Below are positions 23,980 to 26,621 of a DNA stretch of 45,150 nt, piece by piece. The notes beneath the pieces are model-generated. The model ran no database searches, was not told the DNA's origin, and saw only the letters and a list, made by a program, of their open reading frames with translations. A program made the translations under genes and the position numbers. Position 1 is the first letter of the stretch. Every line of letters begins with the position of its first letter. Origin of the DNA: Thermovibrio sp. (GTDB lineage Bacteria > Aquificota > Aquificia > Desulfurobacteriales > Desulfurobacteriaceae); contig WFYG01000045.1 in the NCBI GenBank assembly GCA_015490195.1, forward strand, positions 1 through 45,150, given 5' to 3'.

Positions 23980-24972
23980 TTACTTTTTCCTCTTACGGAG
24001 TCTCTCCATAGCTATCTGGATACTAGCCCTGAGTCTGTCAATTGCAATTGCTAGTTTTGTTATTTCGTCTTTAACTTCTTCTTCCTTGAGACCTCTAACT
24101 CCAAGGTCTATGTCAAGCTTTCCTACGCTGATGTCGTGGGCTGCTTTTGTAAGCCTTTCAATAGGCTTGATGATCTCGCTCTTTGCGAAGTACCAGAAAA
24201 TGGCAAATGCAAGGATAAGTGCCAGAACGTTCCAGATGTCTACCATGTTAATGGCGGAACTTATAAGACCAGGAGGAACGATCGTTACGCTGATGATTCC
24301 ACGGAGCTCTCCAACTTTATAACCGGAAGCCCTTCTAAAGGCTTCCTCTCCGTACTTTGCGATGATAGCTTTTTTATATATAGGGTCAACTTCGTCCGGA
24401 GTTCCATGACACTTAAGGCAAGCTTTTTCTACTCTCAGTGCTTTGGCAAAGCGGAACTTATCTCCGTCCCATCCCCAGTACTCTCCGCTGGTATTTCCCT
24501 TTTTGTACTCTTTCTCTATTGCCTTTATGGCTTTCTCTTCCCACTTGTCAGGTTTGTCAGCAGGTGCTAAGTATCTGTCCGATACGGCTCTAAAGCTCCA
24601 GCCGTACTCAATATTTACAAGTCGGGAGAGTTCCCTCGTCGCAAGGGCAGGGTTGTGGGCGTAGAAGTGAACTTCTCCTATATCCTGAAGTACTTCTTTA
24701 TCACCGTAGCTTTTCAGAACACCGTTTTTAGCATCAAGGGAGAGCAGATAGCCGATGTCGGGGTTATATTTGTTTTCTGTCCATATGGTGTTAAAACCGG
24801 CTATCCATTTACGGAATATAATGACCTGCTGAGCAATAATTTTACCCTCTTTTACCAGCTGCTGCTGATAGTTCTTGTTAAGAAGGTGAAGGAAGGATAG
24901 GGTGGCAAGGCCTACAACTATACTGAAAACTATCAGGACTTTGTGAGAGATACTTAAATTTTTAAGCCCCAT
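23980..24972 (-). CDS. DUF3365-type c-heme sensor protein with HAMP domain
   Basis: A 330-residue membrane sensor. A transmembrane segment at about 10-30 is followed by an extracytoplasmic DUF3365/Tll0287-like domain with a c-type heme motif CLKCH (C185, C188, H189). A second transmembrane segment (about 245-265, rich in Ala, Leu and Phe) precedes a HAMP domain with IKPIERLTKAAHDISVGKLD. The protein ends soon after in a basic coiled coil, with no kinase, GGDEF or methyl-accepting module. It must therefore act through a partner, or it is a shortened receptor. It overlaps the end of the PATAN gene by 11 bases. Confidence 0.87.
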   Translation of the reverse strand: MGLKNLSISHKVLIVFSIVVGLATLSFLHLLNKNYQQQLVKEGKIIAQQVIIFRKWIAGFNTIWTENKYNPDIGYLLSLDAKNGVLKSYGDKEVLQDIGEVHFYAHNPALATRELSRLVNIEYGWSFRAVSDRYLAPADKPDKWEEKAIKAIEKEYKKGNTSGEYWGWDGDKFRFAKALRVEKACLKCHGTPDEVDPIYKKAIIAKYGEEAFRRASGYKVGELRGIISVTIVPPGLISSAINMVDIWNVLALILAFAIFWYFAKSEIIKPIERLTKAAHDISVGKLDIDLGVRGLKEEEVKDEITKLAIAIDRLRASIQIAMERLRKRKK

Positions 24973-25852
24973 TTGCTCCTCCTCTTAGAATAAGAGTTAT
25001 CTCATTTTTCAACTTCTCTCTGCAGCTTTCCCCGTTTATCAGACAACTGTCTGGTATTTTCTCTAGAAGGTTTTCAACAAAAGCATCAATCATGTTTACA
25101 GGGAGCCTGGTTATGTCCATGTCTTCAAAAGTTTCTTCAATCAGGAACTCTCCCATCGGTCCCATGGCTTCTATAAGGAGTTCCCTTATTTTCTCAAACA
25201 GTTCAGGGTTAACAAACGCGTTTTGTTGAGGTTCTTCTACTGTCTTTTTAACCTCTTTTTTCTCTTCGCCCGCTTCTTTTATAAGTCCTTTTTCCTTAAA
25301 GCTGTAGGCTCTTTCCAGTCCGCCCTTAAAGGAGTCTGCACCTGAAAATATCGCTTCGGCGAGTTTGTGTCCCTTTGAAATCAGAGAAAGCAGCTTCCAG
25401 TCTTCTCTATCAAGGGTAACCGGTTCAGATATTTCTTCTGAGAGTTCAAATCGCGGATTTTTCTTGAAGAACTCTTTAAGGTTGTCGGGTATTTCGTCCT
25501 GCTCTTTTGTGAAGTCCATCATTATATTTATTGTGTCTGCCTCTCCTATAGGTTCTTCGTCTATATCCCTCTCAAGGAAAGAGAATCTTCCTTTATCCCA
25601 CATGGCTACGTAGTGGAGTAGGAACTTTATCGCTTCAAAGAGGGGGATTTCTCCTTTTACTATTCTCTCTTTTAGGTGTTCCAGGAAGGGAACGTTTGTC
25701 TTAAAGTTTGTGATCTTTCCGTTCTTTAGTTGAATTGTTATGCTTTCTCCATCACTATTTAGAACCACTTCTCCGGTTTTTTTGCCTATGCTAACTATTT
25801 GTAACAGATCTAAAATTTCGGAATATGAGGAGAAATCACCCCTTAGTTCCAT
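24962..25852 (-). CDS. PATAN (DUF4388) domain protein with C-terminal helical module
   Basis: A 296-residue cytosolic protein. The N-terminal PATAN/DUF4388 domain (about 1-105) is recognised by MELRGDFSSYSEILDLLQIV, then GEVVLNSDGESITIQLKNG, and the WDKGRFSFLE ending. PATAN domains are protein-interaction modules linked to receiver-type signalling. Residues about 210-290 form a helical module (IRELLIEAMGPMGEFLIEET, then a LLEKIPD segment). The divergent neighbour carries two diverged copies of this module. The gene lies upstream of, and overlaps, the heme sensor gene, so the two should be co-expressed. Confidence 0.82.
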   Translation of the reverse strand: MELRGDFSSYSEILDLLQIVSIGKKTGEVVLNSDGESITIQLKNGKITNFKTNVPFLEHLKERIVKGEIPLFEAIKFLLHYVAMWDKGRFSFLERDIDEEPIGEADTINIMMDFTKEQDEIPDNLKEFFKKNPRFELSEEISEPVTLDREDWKLLSLISKGHKLAEAIFSGADSFKGGLERAYSFKEKGLIKEAGEEKKEVKKTVEEPQQNAFVNPELFEKIRELLIEAMGPMGEFLIEETFEDMDITRLPVNMIDAFVENLLEKIPDSCLINGESCREKLKNEITLILRGGANGA

Positions 25853-25925
25853 GGTATCTCCTGAGATTGTTTAGGTGTTAGAATAATCGTAGCATATAAC
25901 CTCTACTGGGAGAAGAGGAGATGAG

Positions 25926-26621
25926 ATGGCTGTTTCCTACAATGAAGATGTGAGAATAGGGAACTCTGTTTTTCACGTGCAGACTGAGTACTACAGAAAG
26001 AGCGGGAAAGTTGTTTCTAACATTTTTAAAGACGGTCTCTCCATAAAGAGGTTGGAGAGGGAAGTAGAAGAGGGGATGGATATTGATTCTGCCGTAAGTG
26101 ATTTTCACAGGTATGTTGTTGAGCGATTGAGAAGCGGCGTTAGGGATAAGAAGGCTCCTGCGAAGAAGAAGGTTCTTACCTTGCCTGAAGCAGTTGAACA
26201 GGAGCTGCTGGAAATTATTTACCCTTACTTCGGTGTGGCCTCATCTCTCGTGATTGACGAGGCCCTTGCTGTTTCCTCTACCTCTGGTGAGTTTTTGGAA
26301 CATCTGCTGGAGGGTTTACCTGATAATCTGAGGGAAGCTCTAACGGCTCAGCTTGCTCCCATACTCTCTTCGCTCTCTTCCGTTGAGAGTTCTGGCAGTG
26401 AAGAGAGCTTCTCTTCACAGGGGGAGGAGATAGACGAGGAGAAGAGGGAGAAGTTGCTTAAGGTACTTTCTGAGTATTTTGGGATAATGGCTCTTCCCGT
26501 TCTTGAGGAGTCTTTAGAGGAGTGGAACGGAGATTACCACCACCTTGTTGAGCTGATAGTCTCCCACCTTGACGATGAGAAGGAGAGGGAGGAACTCTAC
26601 CACAGGCTTATGTTTTTATAA
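25926..26621 (+). CDS. Tandem helical-module protein, divergent from the PATAN gene
   Basis: A 231-residue protein that I cannot name. Residues 1-45 (RIGNSVFHVQTEYYRKSGKV onward) resemble a short beta-hairpin domain found in several uncharacterised signalling proteins. Two related helical modules follow at about 91-147 and 174-231, each with an L..ii..yFG.....vi.E.l pattern, a variable loop, and a hydrophobic helix ending near a (P)D turn. They are separated by a Ser/Glu-rich linker. The same module ends the PATAN protein encoded on the other side of a 73-base gap. No membrane segment or enzymatic motif is visible. The 3' end overlaps mqnA by 14 bases (convergent). Confidence 0.7.
   Translation: MAVSYNEDVRIGNSVFHVQTEYYRKSGKVVSNIFKDGLSIKRLEREVEEGMDIDSAVSDFHRYVVERLRSGVRDKKAPAKKKVLTLPEAVEQELLEIIYPYFGVASSLVIDEALAVSSTSGEFLEHLLEGLPDNLREALTAQLAPILSSLSSVESSGSEESFSSQGEEIDEEKREKLLKVLSEYFGIMALPVLEESLEEWNGDYHHLVELIVSHLDDEKEREELYHRLMFL

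Follow-up and report, generated by a model that had tools for sequence, protein, structure and literature searches.

The window, a stretch of 45,150 nucleotides from a deep-sea heat-loving bacterium, holds three genes, here called A, B, and C, whose features are listed in Table 1. A and B share the reverse strand and overlap, probably with translational coupling, and homologous pairs also show overlaps, of 11 or 4 bases. An earlier sequence-only reading had described a PATAN gene overlapping the gene of a c-heme sensor and a third gene encoded divergently 73 bases away; the positions of all three genes, the overlap, and the spacing are as it gave them.

Table 1. Genes and features of the A-B/C locus (window coordinates)
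Feature	Position	Strand	Details
Gene A	23980..24972	-	330 aa; c-heme Tll0287/DUF3365 (sCache_heme), TM, and HAMP at the C-terminal end
HAMP domain of A	24016..24174	-	residues 267-319; PF00672 7e-7; HAMP signature alignment
Covalent c-heme motif CLKCH of A	24406..24420	-	residues 185-189; heme motif given as CLKCHG
Tll0287-like/DUF3365 domain of A	24280..24876	-	residues 33-231; PF11845 5.4e-28
A/B gene overlap	24962..24972	-	11 bases
Gene B	24962..25852	-	296 aa; DUF4388/PATAN and C-terminal GPxG module; proposed adaptor
GPxG module of B	24986..25222	-	residues 211-289; core MGPMGEFLIEET
CX6C pair in the module of B	25022..25045	-	C270, C277
DUF4388/PATAN domain of B	25493..25840	-	PF14332 1.0e-11 (genome search), 3.4e-11 (Pfam)
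Intergenic region between divergent B and C	25853..25925	.	73 bases
Gene C	25926..26621	+	231 aa; RomY-like N-terminal domain and two GPxG-like modules
RomY-like N-terminal domain of C	25926..26165	+	about residues 1-80; NF053858 1.9e-6, 28.2 bits
Module copy C1	26175..26366	+	residues 84-147; hhalign to C2 98.9, to B 92.5
Module copy C2	26424..26618	+	residues 167-231; hhalign to C1 98.9, to B 53.8

Gene A Encodes a c-Heme Receptor Ending at HAMP

The Tll0287-like domain of A scores 98.7 bits against PF11845 (Pfam gathering cut-off 24.1), and its CLKCH motif is invariant among 11 aligned homologs. Pfam finds no domain in A past HAMP, where just a terminal helix follows, itself conserved in the HAMP signature alignment, so that the earlier description of A as a c-heme DUF3365 sensor with HAMP and no output domain stands. 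HAMP-attached heme-Cache domains bind NO, whereas stand-alone Tll0287 proteins behave as redox proteins rather than as NO sensors (PMC12889525). The domain order of A is that of the NO binder Target 2 of P. azotoformans (two TM segments and HAMP) in the same study; NO is the known ligand of Target 2 but a putative one for A. Elsewhere in the window's genome, a 205-aa protein similar to the heme domain region of A (G000:C16, L214:4997-5614; 2.8e-18) and with no HAMP match is probably a stand-alone Tll0287 protein.

Gene B Combines a PATAN Domain with a GPxG Module

B scores 43.7 bits against PF14332 (gathering cut-off 25) and is the one DUF4388 match returned by a profile search of the whole genome. 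Its C-terminal module is modelled by AlphaFold2 as helical, in agreement with the earlier picture of a PATAN protein ending in a helical module. We use the name GPxG module for a family defined here by a match to the module profile together with an adjacent receptor that ends in HAMP, and the A-B pair shows both features (module profile match 98.7, with A overlapping B). Within the module, C270 is invariant and C277 nearly so in 14 homologs of B, and this CX6C pair, which could be a cytoplasmic thiol redox switch or input or a metal site, is missing from the GPxG modules of other families and specific to the window's family. In a single genome, G008, A has been lost and the second cysteine of the pair is lost too.

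Gene C Carries a RomY-like Domain

The NCBIfam RomY_Nterm match spans the first 72 residues of C, a region modelled by AlphaFold2 as four strands and one helix. The score (Table 1; 29.7 bits in the genome search) lies below the curated NF053858 cut-off of 50 bits, and Pfam gives no significant match on C, which is, as judged from these profiles, a distant relative of RomY and not a certified member. C alone gives this match in the genome, and 14 control genomes gave none, while eight of ten relatives tested match the RomY domain (7e-4 to 4e-8; 19.9-33.7 bits), the syntenic homologs of C doing so at 4e-6 to 4e-8. In Myxococcus, RomY makes MglB a stronger GAP for MglA, an effect that lies mostly in residues 1-89 (PMC9481161); the RomY-like domain of C would be expected to help MglB in the same way. 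The architecture of C, a RomY-like domain followed by two modules, is also present in hydrothermal Acidobacteria MAGs (L125, L127, and L132; modules read by eye), which possess MglA.

RomY-like paralogs occur within the family, and three of them adjoin Roadblock genes (Robl_LC7 2.6e-16, 3.7e-12, and 1.3e-12). One lies in an operon-like Roadblock-RomY-like-MglA arrangement that forms a second MglA system in its genome (L063:5201-7066, G018). Desulfurobacterium-type genomes join the RomY-like domain to a response-regulator receiver, beside a GGDEF-like gene (L050:5683-6693, L052, L053, and L054), and at further loci (L059:4899-6491, L061, and L062) its fusion partner is a PPDK_N/PEP-synthase-like ATP-binding domain. 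By eye, the C-terminal parts of some paralogs (L050, L058, L060, and L063) could plausibly have been Roadblock domains, but profile comparison did not bear this out.

The Module Copies of B and C Are Related

Profiles built from 13-14 family homologs align the three module copies with the hhalign probabilities given in Table 1, whereas column-shuffled controls that keep the composition (100 per pair, 300 trials) reached at most 3.8. The kinship of the copies proposed from the sequence is thus borne out, but the claim that two of them make up most of C is true only in part, as they cover about 129 of its 231 residues and the first 80 form the separate RomY-like domain. The modules of C, like that of B, are modelled as helical, from alignments of modest depth. 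B-type modules (family f1) match a profile of f3, f4, and g3 modules alone at 98.7, and C2 matches the GPxG modules of other families at 46.8, with shuffles reaching at most 1.7. The corresponding value for C1 is marginal (22.9, with one shuffle at 16.9), and its kinship to the modules of other families therefore rests on B. Pfam and NCBIfam scans assign the modules to no family, and Foldseek against the PDB gave no match at E ≤ 0.001 for either model; weak DnaK-SBD and PUR-repeat matches to C above this limit were not used.

A, B, and C Are Retained Together

A, B, and C each have full-length orthologs in one and the same set of 14 family genomes (in G001, A is split into two pieces on separate contigs), a count whose force is limited by the incompleteness and relatedness of the genomes. 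G008 keeps B with a truncated C. The A-B/C order recurs in the family, but the flanking genes (mqnA, TtcA-like, rfaE, radC, and ileS; aldolase, tyrA, and lysA) are equally syntenic, and we therefore rejected an argument from synteny alone for a link between the three genes, their order by itself being weak evidence. Two genomes are rearranged: G017 has A and B together with C elsewhere, G013 has A 57 kb from B and C, and both genomes keep all three genes. That one pattern holds across 14 genomes despite rearrangement is an argument that the genes form a functional set, over and above their common synteny.

GPxG Modules Lie beside HAMP-ending Receptors and Ras-like GTPases

When Aquificota genomes were searched with B, the C-terminal module alone was found in other families, and independently searched MglA coordinates adjoin it. 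The module profile matches 82 of 136 Aquificota genomes and 26 of 297 genomes of the phylum of an Acidobacteria genome. Among 62 GPxG proteins sampled over four groups, 54 have an adjacent same-strand receptor that ends 0-5 residues after HAMP, often in an overlapping gene, although the neighborhood samples are not phylogenetically independent. In the same loci (760 ORFs), only 5 of 62 proteins with the HAMP signature are not beside a threshold-passing GPxG gene; four of these come from Acidobacteriota loci that were included on account of a weaker GPxG match, and the fifth is A of G013, which has moved away from B.

Two families, which we infer to be Aquificaceae (f3) and Hydrogenothermaceae (f4), place the module next to GTPases in different fixed orders. 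Of the 36 f3 genomes with the module, 32 have MglA no more than 2.3 kb away from it, in an operon with small overlaps that runs MglB, MglA, GPxG protein, and Tll0287 c-heme/HAMP receptor with CxxCH kept. Since the f3 receptor has both Tll0287 and HAMP (Pfam 1.5e-30 and 2.2e-14 for the L197 protein), this operon closes with the B-A pair of the window in unchanged order. At L195 and L210 a further f3 set carries a dCache_3-HAMP receptor in place of the Tll0287 one, and three f3 loci have two HAMP proteins followed by a GPxG protein with no nearby GTPase. Triplets of this kind, made up of two short TM-HAMP proteins and a GPxG protein of 222-231 aa, are seen in genus g10 (L231, L232, and L240). 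The N-terminal part of f3 GPxG proteins is matched to PATAN with a probability of only 2-17% in profile comparison. In f4, all 17 sampled GPxG genes stand in clusters of HAMP membrane protein, GPxG, Roadblock, DUF4388, and small GTPase, the last being weakly MglA-like and Ras/Arf by Pfam.

In Acidobacteriota, DUF4388-GPxG proteins (DUF4388 3.8e-24) neighbor a Cache-HAMP receptor and Roadblock, and a single protein fuses Roadblock with GPxG (2.8e-4, just below the cut-off); the MglA profile found no MglA within 5.5 kb of GPxG in this phylum. MglA-like domains occur inside frames of 394-713 aa in Acidobacteria MAGs (G137/G138, L246-L250), which are possible MglA fusions. Weak module matches in long proteins in the PilQ position (L291 and L293) were taken as probable chance.

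The Genome Encodes MglA, MglB, and Pilus ATPases

At L003, a 158-aa MglB gene lies directly before a 193-aa MglA gene, the MglB matching Robl_LC7 at 7.4e-12 and NF052242 at 5.6e-17, below the 200-bit equivalog cut-off of the latter. The pair is kept in all 22 family genomes, at a locus unlinked to A-B, so that MglB and MglA accompany the RomY-like domain; in other families of the Aquificota, MglA-like genes occur where RomY is absent. The genome also has four T2SSE ATPases, two PilB-sized and two PilT-sized, which makes pili a plausible output. In cyanobacteria, PATAN response regulators act on the pilus machinery, and PixE has been proposed to bind PilB1 (PMC7690835).

A Proposed Input Arm for MglA/MglB

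We consider it probable that A, B, and C together serve as an arm through which sensory input reaches MglA/MglB, the Ras-like GTPase switch of the cell. The link to MglA/MglB comes from the RomY-like domain in C and from the presence of B's module beside MglA and MglB in other families. Membership of the set in this circuit is well supported by the domains, the homology of the modules, the conserved gene pairs and operons, the co-occurrence, and the MglA, MglB, and pilus ATPases of the genome. For the biochemistry, that is the ligand, the physical contacts, the sign of regulation, and the output, we infer the following scheme. The periplasmic c-heme domain of A would change state with NO or redox, and HAMP would relay it through the membrane. 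As A itself lacks a kinase or any other output, the GPxG module of B may directly read the HAMP end and the conserved terminal helix. B, with its PATAN domain and module, could then alter the GTP/GDP state or the location of MglA, while C, as a RomY-like protein, would tune MglB. Since the RomY-like domain of C sits on two GPxG-like modules, C could share the docking surface of B, and by competing for it or joining it may set an opposing arm. The output would probably be control of type IV pili or of the pole and polarity. We lean slightly toward extending the scheme to a general design in which kinase-free HAMP-ending receptors with swappable sensors (c-heme, dCache, or none) act directly, through a GPxG adaptor of their own, on MglA in at least two phyla, the Desulfurobacteriaceae having a RomY-like counter-arm whose protein uses the same module.

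The alternative that carries most weight, although we regard it as unlikely, is that A-B is a stand-alone pair acting elsewhere than on MglA, for instance on the pilus ATPases via PATAN, with MglB-MglA adjacency reflecting a shared regulon. The unlinked position of A-B in the window's family, the action of cyanobacterial PATAN regulators on pili with PixE as a proposed PilB1 binder, and the HAMP-HAMP-GPxG sets without a GTPase all fit this reading, but it leaves aside the recurrent MglB-MglA-GPxG-receptor order of f3, the other fixed order at every f4 locus sampled, the Acidobacteriota modules that adjoin Roadblock proteins or are fused with them, and the RomY-like domain contributed by C.

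Far less probable is that A is an electron-carrier-like heme Cache redox protein and not a receptor, with B and C as unrelated neighbors held by synteny. The equal synteny of the flanks and the redox behavior of stand-alone Tll0287 proteins speak for it, yet the TM segment and HAMP of A are those of the class for which NO binding has been shown, the outer domain of the receptors is exchanged (Tll0287, dCache_3, or none) while HAMP and the GPxG partner stay constant, and the three genes are retained in G017 and G013, where A+B and B+C respectively have stayed together. We give still less credence to the idea that the resemblance of the module copies is a convergence in composition between generic acidic helical segments. 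It could draw on the lack of a Pfam family for the modules and on the identity of 25% between aligned C1 and C2, but it is already contradicted by the composition-keeping shuffles, which stay far below the C1-C2, C1-B, and C2-B scores, and by the match of the B-type module to the modules of other families. The sequence-only reading had proposed a signalling island with gas or redox input in which module proteins would form hetero-oligomers, the latter a conjecture; an island with a c-heme gas or redox input is supported, but the evidence ties the set to MglA/MglB rather than leaving it free-standing.

Comparison with Known Systems

To our knowledge, the routes by which extracellular signals reach bacterial Ras-like switches are poorly known, chemosensory arrays and histidine-kinase-like receptors being the known ones. 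The arrangement seen here and at related loci suggests a kinase-free route with a named adaptor module and a heme input of a ligand class that can already be measured, and would bring a deep-branching phylum of thermophiles into the range of RomY-type regulation. The earlier remark that no named pathway has this composition is fair for the exact set of parts, but two named systems come close. The MglA/MglB/RomY polarity module of Myxococcus shares with this genome MglA, the MglB Roadblock GAP, a RomY-like domain (here in C), and type IV pilus-type ATPases. It differs in its RomY, of 188 aa and with no GPxG modules described, where C has 231 aa and two GPxG-like modules, and in its input, which comes from the Frz chemosensory system via RomR/RomX with no c-heme HAMP receptor or GPxG adaptor.

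The actinobacterial conservons, in which a kinase-like receptor with HAMP shares an operon with a Roadblock GAP, a GTPase, and the likely GEF CvnC (PMC13343842), are closest in logic but not in parts. CvnA (of CvnA-D; AGPS) is histidine-kinase-like after HAMP, where A stops; CvnC belongs to a family different from GPxG/DUF4388; and cvnA-D are four syntenic genes of Actinomycetota, whereas the genes described here belong to another phylum and another gene set, with MglA/MglB elsewhere. The DUF4388 domain of B recalls the PATAN genes noted in 2014 near some MglA Group 1 and 5 genes; the part of that account available to us does not report the GPxG module, the HAMP-ending receptor, or the fixed operon (PMC4316618). 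We did not find the GPxG module, its HAMP-ending partner, or the c-heme input in the open-licence papers searched. As the study of sCache_heme HAMP sensors contains no occurrence of GTPases (PMC12889525), the partner offered here for these output-less heme sensors is new.

In the window's own genome, an ODP diiron beta-lactamase-fold protein (PF19583 3.5e-64) is clustered with a Roadblock and a small GTPase-like protein that gives weak SRPRB/Arf matches (G000:C15; L065:6438-9288, L004), possibly a second sensor-GTPase cluster, and in G126 (L230) an ODP gene stands directly before the HAMP-GPxG-Roadblock-DUF4388-GTPase operon.
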